From assembly GCF_001465795.2 (NCBI RefSeq), contig NZ_CP013659.2:1-64000 (forward strand): a stretch of 64,000 nucleotides of DNA, given 5' to 3'. The notes under the pieces are model-generated. The model did no database searches. It worked only from the letters and a program-made list of their open reading frames with translations, and was not told where the DNA came from. The translations under genes were made by a program, and so were the position numbers. This DNA is from Planococcus rifietoensis (GTDB lineage Bacteria; Bacillota; Bacilli; Bacillales_A; Planococcaceae). Positions 36,830 to 59,776 of this stretch are shown here, one piece after another. The stretch's first letter is position 1. Each line of letters begins with the position of its first letter.

Positions 36830-36850
36830 TGGAATGAAATCAGCTTTGCA

Positions 36851-36884
36851 AAACCCGCCGAGAATATTTTTCGGCGGGTTTTTG
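36851..36884 (+). terminator. Terminator of DUF4870 gene
   Basis: AAACCCGCCGA / TCGGCGGGTTT stem with following T run. Confidence 0.9.
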
Positions 36885-36889
36885 TATGG

Positions 36890-37008
36890 AATCAAGTATG
36901 TGAAGTACAAGAGAGGGAAGTAGTAATTTTTATATGGGGGGATTGCGCTCCAATCGAACACTCCATATAGCTCGGACTACGTGGAGAGTATAGTATAGGA
37001 AAGTGAGT
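36890..37008. other. Spacer with small nested inverted repeats
   Basis: No gene. Holds TATATGG...CCATATA arms around an inner GATTG-CGCTC-CAATC hairpin (about 36936-36977), bordering the composite repeat. Significance unknown. Confidence 0.35.
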
Positions 37009-37165
37009 AGAAAAGCTTCCGCTTTTCGACTGCGTTACAGGGGGCTGCTATCCGAGGGGCGGGTGTTGAGCCAATGTGCCGAAGGGCGCGGCACATTTGT
37101 CTCGCCAGCCCGCGCGGTCCCTCAGGAGTCAGCCCCCTTCCACTCCGTCTCTAGCTTTAAAGGGG
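37009..37165 (-). repeat. Element A, left copy (inverted partner at 54334-54546)
   Basis: GC-rich element whose reverse complement is clearly similar to 54334-54546 (shared ctaG-AGACGGAGTG, GGGGGCTGA, CGCGCGGGCTGGCGAGACAAA, TTGGCTCAACACCCGCCCC, GTCGAAAAGC segments). It contains a perfect hairpin AATGTGCCG-AAGGGCG-CGGCACATT (37072-37096) and a GAAAAGC/GCTTTTC stem at its left end. Not coding: small frames across it are not conserved in the partner. Confidence 0.82.
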
Positions 37166-37326
37166 AAAATCATTTCTTCAGCTCCTTTAAAATGAAATGT
37201 AGAAACTCAGCTTATTATATAGCTTGCTTCAGGTAGGTCGAAGAATGAAGTGTCACATGTCTCCATCCACTAAAAATACTAACAAATTTGATCTGTTCAA
37301 ACAGCGGCCTGTCAGACGCACCATCT

Positions 37327-38077
37327 CAGGAAGCGATTCCCCCACTAGCCAGCAACTGAATACAGAAGCAAATCTGATTAAACAATCTTCACATAAAGGA
37401 ATCTCCAAGCCACCGGGCGTCAAGGGTGAGCCGACGCAATAAGACAGGCGCTCTTCCTGGCTTATTGCCAAAGGCCAACCCAAAGCCGGGCGGCGAATAG
37501 TAAGATGAAGCCTAAAGCAAACCCCCGAACATTTACACACAAAAACTCTAGCTATCTTTGTTAATGCTCGATCCGGGAAGCGATTCCCCCGCTAGCCGGC
37601 AACTGAATACAGAAGCAGATATTTTTGAACAAGCTGCACCCAATGAAATCTCCAAGCCGCCGAGCGTCAAGGGTGAGCCGACGTAATAAGACAGGCGCTC
37701 TTCCTGGCTTATTGCCAAAGGCCAACCCAAAGCCGGGCGGCGAATAGTAAGATGAAGCTTAAATCAAACACCTAAACATTTACACACAAAAACTCTAGCT
37801 ATCTTTGTTAACGCTCGATCCGGGAAGCGATTCCCCCGCTAGCCGGCAACTGAATACAGAAGCAAATCCGATTAAACAATCTTCACATAAAGGAATCTCC
37901 AAGCCGCCGGGCGTCACGGGTGAGCCGACGCAATAAGACAGGCGCTCTTCCTGGCTTATTGCCAAAGGCCAACCCAAAGCCGGGCGGCGAATAGTAAAAT
38001 GAAGCTTAAAGCAACCACCCTCCGAACATTTACACACAAAAACTCTAGCTATCTTTGTTAATGCTCGATCCGGGAAG
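37327..38077 (-). repeat. Tandem array of three ~247-bp units, left
   Basis: Units begin at CAGGAAG/CGGGAAG at 37327, 37574 and 37821, with a fourth start at 38071 (periods 247, 247, 250). Each has a GGGAA-GCGA-TTCCC hairpin, a conserved AATCTCCAAGCC / GGGTGAGCCGACG block and a long CAATAAG...CTTATTG hairpin (37436-37468, 37683-37715, 37930-37962). The same units occur in the opposite orientation at 53437-54163. A short minus-strand frame (GWPLAISQEERLSY...) is open in these copies but is interrupted by stops in two right-hand copies, so coding is doubtful. Confidence 0.88.
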
Positions 38078-38146
38078 CTACTATTCAGAGAAGCACCCAA
38101 CAATGAATGAGACATCTTTTGATTTTCCATCATTCAAATTCACCAA

Positions 38147-38182
38147 TAAAAAAGTGCAAGGGCCTGAGCCGTTGCACTTTTT
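38147..38182. terminator. Terminator of ytoQ
   Basis: AAAGTGCAA / TTGCACTTT stem with a 12-base loop, A/T runs on both sides. Confidence 0.82.
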
Positions 38183-38183
38183 G

Positions 38184-38624
38184 TTATTCGAAAATATAAG
38201 ATAAAGCTTTGATCGCCTGGTCGCAAGTTTCGACGGTGGCGTTTGCTTTTTGGGATAGCTCTTTTAGCGGATGGTGCAGTTTTTCAGGGCGGATGACGAT
38301 GAGCGGCTTATGGTTCGCCAAAGCGGCGCTTGCGTCCATCGCGGTATTCCACTGCTTGTACTGCTCGCCGAACAAGGCGATAACGAGGTCCGATTTTTCC
38401 ATCAACACGCTCGTACGCAAATTATTGAAGCTGGACGCTGCGGCATCCTTGAAGATAGCGCTTGGCTGTTCTCCCAGAATCTCTTCGCCGATATTGTCGG
38501 AGCGGTCGTGGTTTTCCATCGGCCCGACGAAATCGACTGGCAGATTGAGCGCCAAGGATTTCTTTTTGATTTCTTCGCGCCAGGAACTGTGAATTTCACC
38601 TGCAAGATAAACGGTTAATCTCAT
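38184..38624 (-). CDS. ytoQ: YtoQ family protein
   Basis: A 146-residue member of the YtoQ family, related in fold to nucleoside 2-deoxyribosyltransferases: MRLTVYLAGEIHSSWREEI start, FVGPMENHDRSDNIGEEILGE, then LVIALFGEQYKQWNTAMDASAALANHKPLIVIRPE. Enzymatic role unproven. Two upstream in-frame ATGs exist; TGGAGG nine bases before ATG 38624 and the conserved MRLTVYLAGE start decide. Probably cotranscribed with the gene at 38691-38912. Confidence 0.9.
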   Translation of the reverse strand: MRLTVYLAGEIHSSWREEIKKKSLALNLPVDFVGPMENHDRSDNIGEEILGEQPSAIFKDAAASSFNNLRTSVLMEKSDLVIALFGEQYKQWNTAMDASAALANHKPLIVIRPEKLHHPLKELSQKANATVETCDQAIKALSYIFE

Positions 38625-38690
38625 GAGTCTCATCCTCCATTTTCCATTTCCTCTTAGTGTAGCATAAAGGAGCATGAGCCGGAAAAGGAT

Positions 38691-52012: not shown

Positions 52013-52657
52013 GTGCAGACAATTATCAATGCTTTTCCATACTTAATGGAAGGCTTGCAAGTTACGTTATATATTTTCGGCATTGCCATCGTCCTCGGCT
52101 TCTTGATCGGGCTGGTTGTCGCTTTAATGCGCTTGGCACCGTTCAAAATCTTGAACTGGATCGCCAAAATCTTCGTCGATGCAATCCGGGGGACGCCGTT
52201 CATCGTCCAATTGTTCTTCATTTACTTCGGCTTGAACTCGCTTGGATTCTTTTCGCTCGATAACACGACAGCTGGGATTGTGACAGTTGCGATCAACGCC
52301 GGTGCTTACTTCTCGGAAATCATCCGGGCAGGGATTCAGTCGATCGATAAAGGGCAAACAGAAGCGGCGCGGTCGCTCGGGCTCAACTCAACACAGACCA
52401 TGCGCCACATCATTTTGCCTCAGGCATTCCGCCGCATGCTCCCGACGATTACCAACCAGGCGATCATTTCCTTGAAGGATACTTCGCTCTTATCGGTTAT
52501 CGGTGTAGCGGATTTAACACAGGAAGGGCGCATCCAGGCCAGTGCCACATTCGATGCGTTTAACGTCTATTTGATCCTCGGCATCATTTACTTTATCGTC
52601 ATTTACTTGCTCTCGATGCTCGCGAGCTTTGTGGAAAGGAAGTTTGTATTGCGATGA
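52013..52657 (+). CDS. Amino-acid ABC transporter permease
   Basis: A 214-residue HisM/GlnP-type permease with about five spans and the EAA loop ([28 protein letters not shown]) that contacts the ATPase. The N-terminal [30 protein letters not shown] segment is typical. GTG 52013 has GGGGGA upstream. The stop overlaps the ATPase start (ATGA). Confidence 0.94.
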
Positions 52658-53382
52658 GTATGATCAGAGTAGAAAACCTCAAAAAATCATTCGGAGATTT
52701 GGAAGTCATCAAAGACATGAGCACAGTCGTCGAAGAGAAGGAAGTCATTTGCGTCATTGGCCCTTCCGGTTCCGGCAAAAGTACGTTTCTTCGTTGCTTG
52801 AATCGCTTAGAAGATATCAGCGGAGGCCATGTTTATATTGAAGGGACGGATATCACCGACCCGAAAGTCGATATCAATAAAGTGCGCCAAGATGTAGGGA
52901 TGGTATTCCAACAGTTTAATTTGTTCCCGCATAAAACGGTGCTTCAGAATGTGACGTTAGCGCCAATCAAACTGAAAAAAGGCGACCAGAAAGCCGCTGA
53001 GAAGAAAGCTTACGAATTGCTGGATAAGGTCGGCTTGCGCGAAAAGGCGAAAGCCTATCCGGGCGAATTGTCCGGCGGGCAGAAGCAGCGTGTCGCGATT
53101 GCACGCGCACTTGCGATGGACCCGAAAATCATGCTGTTCGATGAGCCGACTTCAGCGCTCGACCCGGAGATGGTCGGTGACGTGCTGGATGTTATGAAAC
53201 AACTTGCGAGAGAAGGCATGACCATGGTCGTCGTGACCCACGAAATGGGCTTTGCGGCAGAAATGGGCGACCGCGTGCTGTTTATCGACGGCGGTTATAT
53301 CGTCGAAGAAAACGTGCCGAAGGAATTGTTCGGCAATCCGCAGCATGAGCGAACAAAAGCATTCTTGAGTAAAGTGTTGTAA
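52654..53382 (+). CDS. Amino-acid ABC transporter ATPase (GlnQ-like)
   Basis: A 242-residue ABC ATPase: Walker [10 protein letters not shown] near residue 34, Q-loop [16 protein letters not shown], signature [17 protein letters not shown], Walker [15 protein letters not shown] and the switch His in [10 protein letters not shown]. It energises the preceding permease. Translation is coupled by the ATGA overlap. Confidence 0.96.
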
Positions 53383-53392
53383 AGATGAGTGG

Positions 53393-53421
53393 AAAGCGTG
53401 CCTATTGGGCGCGCTTTTTTG
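53393..53421 (+). terminator. Terminator of ABC transporter operon
   Basis: AAGCGTGCC-TATTG-GGCGCGCTT (one G-T pair), then T residues. Confidence 0.85.
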
Positions 53422-53436: not shown

Positions 53437-54163
53437 GAATTAAATAGCGAGAGTTTATGTGTGGAAATGTTTCTAGGATTGGTTGAGCTTCGATTTGGCA
53501 ATCGCCGCCGTGCTTTGGGTTGGCCTCTTGCAATAAGCCAAGAAGAACACTTGTCTTATTGCGTCGGCTCACCCTTGACGCTCGGCGGCTTGGAGATTTC
53601 ATTGTTTACTGCTGGGTTAAATCGATCTGCTTCTATATATAGTTGCCGGCTAGTGGGGGAATCGCTTCCCGGGTGGCGGTTGAAATAAGAAAGCGAGAGT
53701 TTGCTTGCGGAAGTGTTTCGGCGTTCTAGTTGAGCTTCGTTTTGCCAATCGCTGCCGTGCTTTGGGTTGGCCTCTTGCAATAAGCCAAGAAGAACACTTG
53801 TCTTATTGCATCGGCTCACCCTTGGCGCTCGGCGGCTTGTAAATTTCGTTGGATGGGGTTGTTTAAATCAATCTGCTTCTATATGTAGTTGCCGGCTAGT
53901 GGGGGAATCGCTTCCCGAGTGTTAGTTGAAATAAGAAAGCGAGAGTTTTCTTGCGGAAGTGTTTCGGCGTTCTAGTTGAGCTTCGTTTTGCCAATCGCCG
54001 CAGTGCTTTGGGTTGGCCTCTTGCAATAAGCCAGAAAGAGCATCTGTCTTATTGCGTCGGCTCACCCTTGGCGCTCGGCGGCTTGTAAATTTCGTTGTAT
54101 GGGGTTGTTTAAATCGATCTTCTTCTATATGTAGTTCCCAGCTAGTAGGGGAATCGCTTCCTG
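53437..54163 (+). repeat. Tandem array of three ~246-bp units, right (inverted relative to 37327-38077)
   Basis: Units end at TTCCCG/TTCCTG at 53671, 53917 and 54163 (period 246). Each keeps the CAATAAG...CTTATTG hairpin (53530-53562, 53777-53809, 54023-54055), the CGGCTCACCCTTG block and the GGGGAATCGCTTCC end. The sequence is the reverse complement of the left array. The short frame GWPLAISQ... continues through unit 1 but meets TAA in units 2 and 3. Confidence 0.88.
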
Positions 54164-54333
54164 AGACAGGGTGTCTGACAGGTTGGTATTAAAACAGGAA
54201 AGTCTGTTGTTTTGTTTGGGAAATGGAGACTCGTAACACTTCAGTCCTTGGCCTGTTTGAAGCAAGCTACAGAATGTGATACGTTTTAAACTTTTATATC
54301 AAGAGGACTTAAGAAACGATTTTTTACTCTAAA
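54164..54333. other. Linker of the right composite repeat
   Basis: No gene. Reverse-complement similarity to 37166-37326 is visible at several points (for example GTGTCTGACAGG versus GCGTCTGACAGG, and TGAAGCAAGC), showing that the whole composite, not just its parts, was duplicated in inverse order. Confidence 0.6.
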
Positions 54334-54546
54334 ACTAGGAGACGGAGTGAAAGGGGGCTGACGCCTGTGGGATCGCGCGGGCTGGCGAGACAAACGTGGC
54401 GCGTCCTTTGCGGCACGTTGGCTCAACACCCGCCCCATCCCCGGGCAGCTGAAAACGCGACGTCCTGTCGCATCAGCTGCATGACTCGCATCCTGCGAGC
54501 CCCAAGCAGGGCCCTGCAACGAAGTCGAAAAGCCGAAGCTTTTCTA
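54334..54546 (+). repeat. Element A, right copy
   Basis: Inverted partner of 37009-37165. The main hairpin is AACGTGGCG / CGGCACGTT (54393-54419), which differs from the left AATGTGCCG / CGGCACATT but keeps pairing at the T-A to C-G change. This copy carries two extra small hairpins, GCGAC-GTCCT-GTCGC and CTCGC-ATCCT-GCGAG (about 54450-54500). It ends in GAAAAGC-CGAA-GCTTTTC. Confidence 0.82.
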
Positions 54547-54605
54547 ATCTCTTAATCATTGCTCATTCAACCTTTTATTATCACCTCCATAAATTCCAGC
54601 AAAAC

Positions 54606-54636
54606 AAAAAAACGTGCCGCAGGGGCACGTTTTTTA
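54606..54636. terminator. Terminator of ppiB
   Basis: AAAACGTGCC-GCAGG-GGCACGTTTT flanked by A and T runs. Confidence 0.9.
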
Positions 54637-54643
54637 TAATGGA

Positions 54644-55084
54644 TTATTCAGCGTCAAAGACGTGGACTTTTTCCATTTTGTCGCCGTTTTTCATGGCTTT
54701 TGCAGTTTCAAGGCCTTTTGTTACTTGGCCAAATACTGTGTGTACGCCATCAAGATGCGGCTGTGAATCATGGACGATAAAGAACTGGCTTGATCCAGTG
54801 TCTTTGCCGGCATGTGCCATAGAAAGGCTGCCTGGCTGGTGTTTATGCGGGTTGCCTTCTGTTTCACATTTGATCGTTTTGCCGCTGCCGCCCATACCTG
54901 TTCCAGTTGGGTCGCCGCCTTGGGAAACGAAACCTGGGATAACGCGGTGGAAAACAACGCCGTTATAGAATCCGGAGTTTGCAAGCTCCTCAAAGTTTGC
55001 AACTGTGTTCGGTGCTTCATTCGGGAAAAGGTCGAATTCGATTACTTCGCCGTTTTCCATGTGCATGTGGCCTTTTTTCGCCAT
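54644..55084 (-). CDS. ppiB: Peptidyl-prolyl cis-trans isomerase, cyclophilin type
   Basis: A 146-residue single-domain cyclophilin that catalyses prolyl isomerisation in the cytoplasm. Active-site segments [24 protein letters not shown] (Arg, Phe) and [16 protein letters not shown] are intact, with [12 protein letters not shown] near the end. No signal peptide. ATG 55084 is nine bases from GGAG; the upstream in-frame ATG at 55093 overlaps it. It follows the SDR gene on the same strand. Confidence 0.95.
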
Positions 55085-55159
55085 AACTAACATCTCCTTT
55101 TCAATTGGTTCATCCCTTAGTATATCGGCTTTTGGTTCTACTGCCTACTGATAAGGGGC

Positions 55160-58954: not shown

Positions 58955-59776
58955 ATGAAAAAGCAAATCGTTACACTAACTGCAATCGCGGCATTAAGTG
59001 TAGGCGCAGCTACAACAGCAAGCGCTAATTCATCGTATACAGTTCAGTCAGGTGACACTCTGTGGGGCATCTCACAAGAAAAGAACGTTTCCGTTCAAAA
59101 TCTTAAAAACTGGAACGACCTATCATCAGATTTGATTTTCCCGAACGAGACGCTCTCTGTTGAAGGAAAAGAACAAGCATCCAAGAAATCATCGAACTCA
59201 TCATCTACCTATACAGTTAAAAGCGGCGACACTTTGTTCAAGATCGCTTCTGCTCACGGAATCTCATTGGATCAATTGATGAGCTGGAACAACATCTCCG
59301 GCCACATGATCTACCCTGGACAAGAATTCGCAGTTAAAGGCGCAGCAGCAAAAGCGGCAGCACCTGCACCAGCAGCACCGGCAGCAAAAGCACCAGCTAA
59401 AGAAGCACCAAAATCAACTCAAGCAGCACCAACACCTGCAAGTGCACCAGCAGCAGCTAAACCAGCAGCAGCTTCTACACAATCAGGTAAAGAAATGACA
59501 GTATCCGCAACAGCTTACACAGCTTATTGCGCAGGATGCTCAGGTACAACAGCAACTGGAATCGACTTGCGTGCGAACCCGAACCAAAAAGTTATCGCAG
59601 TTGATCCATCCGTTATCCCACTCGGTTCAAAAGTATGGGTTGAAGGATACGGAACAGCTATCGCTGGCGATACTGGCGGAGCAATCAAAGGCAACAAGAT
59701 CGACGTTTTCATCCCGACTCAAGGCGAAGCTTTGAACTGGGGACGCAAAAACATCACAATCAAAATTCTAGACTAA
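58955..59776 (+). CDS. Secreted LysM-3D domain cell-wall protein
   Basis: A 273-residue exported protein: a Sec signal peptide (MKKQIVTLTAIAALSVGAATTASA), two LysM peptidoglycan-binding repeats (about residues 27-70 and 85-128, each YTV-SGDTL), an Ala/Pro-rich wall-spanning linker (about 130-180), and a C-terminal 3D domain with three Asp (VSATAYTAYC, AVDPSVIPLGSKV, GDTGGAIKGNKIDVF), the lytic transglycosylase-like fold of YocH/Rpf-related proteins. It probably remodels peptidoglycan. Codon use in the linker is A-rich (GCA), unlike its neighbours. Confidence 0.93.
   Translation: MKKQIVTLTAIAALSVGAATTASANSSYTVQSGDTLWGISQEKNVSVQNLKNWNDLSSDLIFPNETLSVEGKEQASKKSSNSSSTYTVKSGDTLFKIASAHGISLDQLMSWNNISGHMIYPGQEFAVKGAAAKAAAPAPAAPAAKAPAKEAPKSTQAAPTPASAPAAAKPAAASTQSGKEMTVSATAYTAYCAGCSGTTATGIDLRANPNQKVIAVDPSVIPLGSKVWVEGYGTAIAGDTGGAIKGNKIDVFIPTQGEALNWGRKNITIKILD

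Follow-up and report, generated by a model that had tools for sequence, protein, structure and literature searches.

Tandem arrays of a folded, non-coding intergenic repeat in Planococcus rifietoensis and related Planococcaceae

Two arrays of tandem units in the window

The stretch of DNA analysed here, called the window in what follows, covers the first 64,000 nucleotides of contig NZ_CP013659.2 of Planococcus rifietoensis and carries two arrays of tandem units, delimited by Tandem Repeats Finder as 3.0 copies of 247 nt at 37329-38078 (left array, + strand) and 2.8 copies of 246 nt at 53482-54165 (right array, - strand). The left array follows a leader at 36998..37324 on the + strand (nhmmer match to model positions 2-315, E 6.7e-90, alignment A3; window coordinates obtained by arithmetic), the structured part of which occupies about 37040-37160. 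It consists of unit 1 (37329..37575, core 37402-37510, P3 hairpin 37436-37468), unit 2 (37576..37822, core 37649-37757, P3 hairpin 37683-37715) and unit 3 (37823..38072, core 37896-38004, P3 hairpin 37930-37962), and ends near 38078 with the short beginning of another unit. Inverted repeats at 36850-36882 and 38149-38182 flank the whole as hairpins that match a terminator role by eye, and neither was listed by the terminator scan at this array. The second one, flanked by A/T, is probably a bidirectional terminator, judged by eye, shared with the convergent gene downstream, which gene family classification assigns to the ytoQ type (38184-38675, - strand).

The right array is read on the - strand and lies downstream of a co-oriented cyclophilin gene (54644-55093), which is followed by a terminator-like hairpin at 54607..54635 on the same strand. 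Its leader (54171..54554, coordinates by arithmetic) was matched in two pieces, 54554-54457 and 54449-54171. The first unit in array order, numbered right unit 3 in an earlier note made on this DNA, spans 53933..54161 (core 53981-54089, P3 hairpin 54023-54055), the middle one 53687..53915 (core 53735-53843, P3 hairpin 53777-53809), and the last one, right unit 1 of the earlier note, 53444..53669 (core 53488-53596, P3 hairpin 53530-53562). Beyond it, on the + strand, the convergent gene for an ABC-transporter ATPase (52654-53382) ends in a terminator-like hairpin at 53391..53419, and the terminator scan thus places the right array between the terminator-like hairpins of both its neighbours. The classified genes beside the two arrays are of unrelated types. 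Elsewhere in the window, a GCA-rich tandem repeat of 12/24 nt is found at 59342-59413, within frame 58955-59776.

A three-helix core with compensatory changes

The earlier note had described a hairpin with a 7-nt loop in each of the six units, and direct reading of both arrays finds it in 6/6, with the inner stems that had been reported: CAGG/CCTG in left units 1-3, CAAG/CTTG in right units 1 and 2, and CAGA/TCTG in right unit 3. The outer stem, on the other hand, is not identical in all six, as left unit 2 has GTAATAAG/CTTATTGC, with a U-G wobble, instead of GCAATAAG. This hairpin, P3, caps a larger domain of three helices, which is present in many copies in the genome and in several genera. 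The folded core (P1-P2-P3), of about 90 nt, lies within the tandem units of about 247 nt: P1 is of the AGCCGCC/GGCGGC type, P2 of the GGGTGAGCC/GGCCAACCC type with a 2x2 internal loop, and P3 reads GCAATAAG-A-CAGG, 7-nt loop, CCTG-G-CTTATTGC, its A-G mismatch being conserved. In addition, the 247-nt unit type opens with a hairpin closed by a GNRA loop, found in 82/82 units (73 GCGA, 7 GTGA, 1 GTAA and 1 GCAA) of the whole-unit alignment A2, for which 84 units qualified and two with deletions were dropped. The stem of this second hairpin is 90% paired, with its outermost pair open in 31/82 units, and shows little covariation.

The covariation of the core was analysed on genomic copies drawn from 140 HMM matches (88 of the host genome and 52 of other loci), from which six in two overlapping loci were skipped. 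The resulting alignment A1 comprises 115 near-complete cores less one with a deletion, that is 114 rows (113 distinct), and the larger share of rows in both A1 and A2 comes from the host genome. The proposed pairs are formed in 95.7% of 3,031 cells, 16/27 of them show changes on both sides, none of 500 shuffles attains any of the five observed measures, and pairing falls to 20-47% when the partners are slid by 1 to 3 columns. Our own all-against-all test (113 sequences, 109 columns, tree-based null, 20 simulations) places two pairs, 50/62 and 41/71, beyond every null value among the 5,565 column pairs. The earlier note had singled out two pairs changed on both sides, and both are present in the window; columns 50/62 rank first of all, whereas columns 51/61, changed on both sides in 12 rows, are not significant alone (E about 25, or about 0.12 by hand if restricted to the 27 proposed pairs). 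Counting proposed pairs only, 8/27 pass E 0.05 by hand. Two unproposed column pairs, 38/74 and 17/92, figure among the ten top-ranked, and both adjoin helices.

The same fold was examined outside Planococcus by applying the model to 30 loci, drawn from four other genera, which gave 84 matches and 60 distinct rows. There, 88.4% of 1,600 cells are paired, in an alignment fitted to the model and therefore favouring pairing, and 18/27 pairs have changes on both sides; the covariation score is attained by 0/500 shuffles and the number of pair types by 25/500. P2 and the lower part of P3 are paired at 96-98%, the upper part of P3 at 86-89%, and P1 as defined in Planococcus at 63%. Compensatory changes thus keep a core of about 90 nt with conserved internal loops. 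Two markers of the folded strand were tried and rejected: minimum-energy folding, by which both strands fold better than shuffles (z from -3.1 to -5.4 for the sense strand and from -2.0 to -5.2 for the antisense), and the balance of G-U against A-C changes, which is 60 to 35 in the 113 Planococcus sequences but 29 to 32 cells in the other genera.

Leaders, setting, copy number and history of the arrays

Most arrays examined follow a modular leader. In the host genome, a leader of about 315 nt was matched before 28 of the 37 arrays recognised by the HMM, each made of 1 to 7 matched pieces with fragments included, and in 17 of these 28 only 4 to 9 nt separate it from unit 1. Alignment A3 reveals a fixed frame with an interior in unrelated versions; paired changes, seen by eye only, link GCCGTGGG with CCCACAGGC and TCCGAGGG with CCCTCAGGA. 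The frame presumably resembles a widespread palindromic intergenic element of the Bacillales. Six leader matches had no adjacent array detected at the DNA level, and the model later located units beside two of them. The 5' part of the right leader contains a match to the Rfam family Bacillaceae-1 (54444-54499, + strand, opposite to the array), and the same family recurs, antisense to the array, in leader 5' parts at 4/9 of the array-bearing loci scanned (L062, L075, L076, L019).

Arrays tend to be located behind a gene of the same orientation or between two convergent ones. By a crude gene finder, 29/37 arrays have a co-oriented gene upstream and 16/37 have one downstream; by the same crude calls, which have no genome-wide baseline, 14 settings are convergent, 1 is divergent, 15 have both genes co-oriented and 7 have the two opposed. 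This position is wrong for a riboswitch or another 5' leader element, which was rejected as an explanation, the downstream gene being co-oriented in only those 16 arrays. A search of the two window arrays gave no promoter-like site on the sense strand, and none stands out by eye upstream of 22 leaders. A rough and noisy script gives a terminator-like site on the sense strand between -650 and -150 in 25/37 arrays (antisense 17; random 500-nt pieces 37%), within 260 nt downstream in 11/37 (antisense 19; random 21%), and inside the leader plus array in 22/37. Just downstream of one array, at L023:1977-2382 on the - strand, Rfam recognises a cspA thermoregulator (85 bits).

The host genome, a single contig of 3.5 Mb, gave 80 matches in the DNA search and, with the covariance model R1 of the core (110 positions, 27 pairs), 83 units in 43 arrays of at most six units, 14 of them single. 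The units follow one another without genes between, and each of the 37 HMM arrays has one orientation. All 46 Planococcus genomes match, with from 3 to at least 83 units each. In wider searches, 56/200 sampled genomes and 5/19 genera of the family match, as do 93/261 genomes of the order (these 261 belonging to the same family as far as listed) and 13/299 of the class, all 13 inside the family; searches over more than 40 genomes used stricter filters, so that weak matches are lost. Two genomes of the genus labelled g19 reach 104 (G177) and 116 (G172) matches, and a pattern scan of named genomes returned nine stretches, eight of Sporosarcina and one of Filibacter tadaridae; in the stretch from Sporosarcina sp. 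JAI121, three matches are spaced as in G177, for which reason g19 is taken as Sporosarcina. The units are tandemly multiplied with periods that differ by lineage: the host genome has periods of about 215 and 247 nt and G014 one of about 150 nt, while in G177 units alternate in orientation about every 205 nt and in G098 the orientation is mixed. Since the period varies while the core stays, it is the core, and not the 247-nt unit, that is kept. At one locus of G177 (L140), two unit types alternate head to head, and one of them is flanked by a 16-nt inverted repeat, AGTGCCGAGTATATAG, recognised by eye.

Plasmid and phage origins were both considered and rejected. The sole plasmid match, NZ_CP025126.1 (L078), is a 7-kb linear record named plasmid that bears three units; its tables, which are incomplete, list five genes, all of chromosomal type and with no replication gene among them, and the record is probably a fragment of a chromosome. 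Annotated phages gave no match, nor did viral contigs for two exact patterns.

The history of the left array was followed through its ytoQ-type neighbour, which is present in 45/46 genomes. Among the best 30 loci of the 45, 11 (the host included) have the leader with 1 to 3 near-full units, 1 a leader fragment with a unit fragment, 6 isolated partial matches and 12 nothing. Over 17 units from 11 genomes at this one locus (128 cross-genome pairs), identity is 87.1% for the core with the 5' block, 68.7% for the mid part and 63.5% for the tail. The P3 stem differs there in a matched way, GCAATAAG/CTTATTGC against GCCTTAAG/CTTAAGGC, either through change in place or through exchange with another array. 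Beside the ytoQ-type gene, other Planococcus genomes (L114-L116, L118, L124-L126, L128) have short repeats of quite another kind, as seen by eye, among them repeats around GCGCGCGTTCA, GCGTATTT or GCGACGAAGCTAGCGGAGCGATGCAGGA.

Within the host genome, 55 full-type units were compared together with 25-nt flanks. Units of one array are on average 79.7% identical and at most 98% (40 pairs), while those of different loci are on average 68% and at most 79.7% identical; no near-identical whole units were therefore present at different loci among the 1,445 pairs, and there is no sign of recent spread. Local identity between loci nevertheless rises to 97% in the mid part, 91% in the tail and 96% in the core (84% over 176 nt by BLAST), so that some exchange between loci has occurred, and such exchange could also keep the cores alike. 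These comparisons indicate that the number of units changes through local duplication and loss, that loci diverge in place, and that the core is constrained in place at the one site tested, where the constraint exceeds what a dead parasite would show.

Nature of the elements

No prior description of this family was recognised in the literature, subscription journals lying mostly outside the search. The RepRanger paper (PMC12306157) holds, by word search, no mention of Planococc or Sporosarcina, and the 104-RNA paper (PMC2864571) was likewise word-searched. Rfam recognises nothing over the units: at gathering scores the whole window gives only the Bacillaceae-1 match of the right leader, and at E up to 1 the region 37200-38180 gives one sub-threshold match to Atu_C9, outside the units, the right array having been scanned at gathering scores only. 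A later screen reportedly produced 224 candidate RNAs. Bacillaceae-1 RNA (RF01690) itself corresponds to the 5' part of some leaders and not to the unit, on the strand opposite to the array. Correia elements and other MITEs are also non-coding, folded and dispersed; around the two window arrays the repeat finder listed no bounding inverted repeat, and at the Sporosarcina-group locus L140 one unit type has the 16-nt inverted repeat on its flanks. The BOX elements of Streptococcus pneumoniae, boxA-boxB(n)-boxC, have units of about 45 nt and are likewise modular and intergenic, with a variable central folded module and many copies, whereas the present units measure 150-250 nt, the leader about 315 nt, and the taxon is another one. 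According to one account (PMC3049150), BOX elements are folded and modular, insert slowly and are over-represented where genes converge. They are the closest known system in build and placement, the leader that precedes most host arrays and the variable number of pieces behind it being an analogy of build and not of descent.

Several other explanations have to be weighed against an element of this kind. The leader and its units may be tandem structured RNA genes that give rise to a single long non-coding transcript, the repeated domains of which would bind a protein or a ligand. Covariation in three helices, the conservation of the internal loops, a GNRA loop in every A2 unit, the excess of changes into G-U over those into A-C in Planococcus and the fixed order of leader then array all point in that direction, and the idea is a possible one; we nevertheless doubt it, because promoter-like sites are missing on the sense strand of both window arrays, the G-U excess disappears in the other genera, the GNRA hairpin so often has its outermost pair open, and orientation alternates among units in Sporosarcina-group loci. 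The terminator-like sites before the arrays and inside leader plus array, if the noisy scan reflects real ones, also argue against one long transcript. The stronger claim, that of a new class of large modular non-coding RNA with a structured leader and a variable number of one protein- or ligand-binding domain, expressed from dozens of loci each kept by selection and adjustable in domain number, appears to us rather improbable. A short peptide encoded on the opposite strand in the frame GWPLAISQ is scarcely credible: the stop-free stretch around its W codon has a median of 57 codons, the longest of the six frames (motif in 48/55 units), but only 8 of the 165 reverse-strand frames (3 x 55 units) are open across the whole unit and the crude nonsynonymous/synonymous ratio is 0.85-1.10 in all six. 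No conserved frame with a low ratio therefore exists among them, and the reverse-strand peptide was rejected. Together with the covariation in Planococcus and in other genera, this bears out the selection on a folded strand rather than on a peptide that the earlier note had proposed, and its interpretation as a whole is partly supported.

Mobile or architectural DNA elements offer two further readings. REPs flank RAYT genes, and tandem clusters occur among REPINs, as stated in one study (PMC3116915); the present units, intergenic, folded, clustered in tandem and alternating in orientation in Sporosarcina-group loci, resemble REPs, BIMEs and REPINs, and could be hairpins of single-stranded DNA that a Y1 (RAYT-like) transposase mobilises. 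A Y1_Tnp match is present in 29/46 Planococcus genomes, in most of them as one gene per genome (L163:2945-3547 is such an IS200-like Y1 gene), and the median number of units is 44 with it against 24 without (one-sided Mann-Whitney p 0.018, uncorrected for descent, top counts being at least 83); moreover, the six genomes with at most six units lack an intact Y1 gene, five having none and G006 a fragment with a stop. Yet around the 20 of 39 Y1 loci scanned (19 genomes), the model gives no match at E up to 1 over a distance of about 3 kb, so that REPIN membership fails on position, and several genomes without a Y1 match are rich in units (G047 with at least 83, G004 with 68, G017 with 53, G018 with 46 and G052 with 45). 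The core, of about 110 nt with conserved internal loops, is large and no short palindrome, the host genome has one orientation per array, and near-identical whole units are missing between loci. Mobilisation by a RAYT was accordingly set aside despite the weak correlation of copy number with Y1 presence, and we consider this reading unlikely. A double-stranded DNA site, such as a cruciform or a gyrase or nucleoid-protein site acting between convergent genes, is very unlikely: it would agree with arrays placed between terminator-like hairpins and convergent genes, but the conserved internal loops and the A-G mismatch fit one folded strand and not a perfect palindrome. Unit-free stretches of 0.7-0.8 Mb, roughly opposite the contig start, were observed at 1.32-2.13 Mb in G000 (the host), 1.60-2.31 Mb in G021 and 1.56-2.33 Mb in G009 (p 0.0009, 0.0135 and 0.0008 under uniform placement). 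They would suit such a site, but the three genomes are related and not independent, and G014 has no such stretch (p 0.57).

With moderate confidence, we favour the explanation that the arrays represent an undescribed family of mosaic repeats, non-coding and intergenic, which belongs to the Planococcaceae and works like BOX elements or BIMEs. In this model, the elements would have been spread anciently by a putative trans-acting machinery, units would be gained and arrays would shrink in the present day by recombination or slippage, and selection on the core would persist because a host factor recognises it in its folded, single-stranded form, either as RNA or as exposed single-stranded DNA. 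Mobility is something that we infer only, because no target-site duplication, exact ends or mobilising protein was found; indeed, the orthologous sites compared for insertion ends are too diverged to fix either the ends or a target-site duplication. The constraint at the orthologous locus, the exchange between loci, the two unproposed column pairs among the ten top-ranked and the low pairing of P1 outside Planococcus also speak against this explanation. The fold, the tandem growth and the constraint are the best-supported parts of the model, and the old spread and the host factor are those that we infer.

In conclusion, this folded element, which has no Rfam family, occurs in dozens of copies in most of the Planococcus genomes searched and in more than 100 in two Sporosarcina-group genomes, and would rank among the more abundant of the structured elements between genes in a bacterial family. 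Are dispersed bacterial repeats parasites or parts of their host? If selection in place holds at many loci, this family would provide a test case for that question, since the leader, the number of units, their orientation and the copy number all vary between related species.
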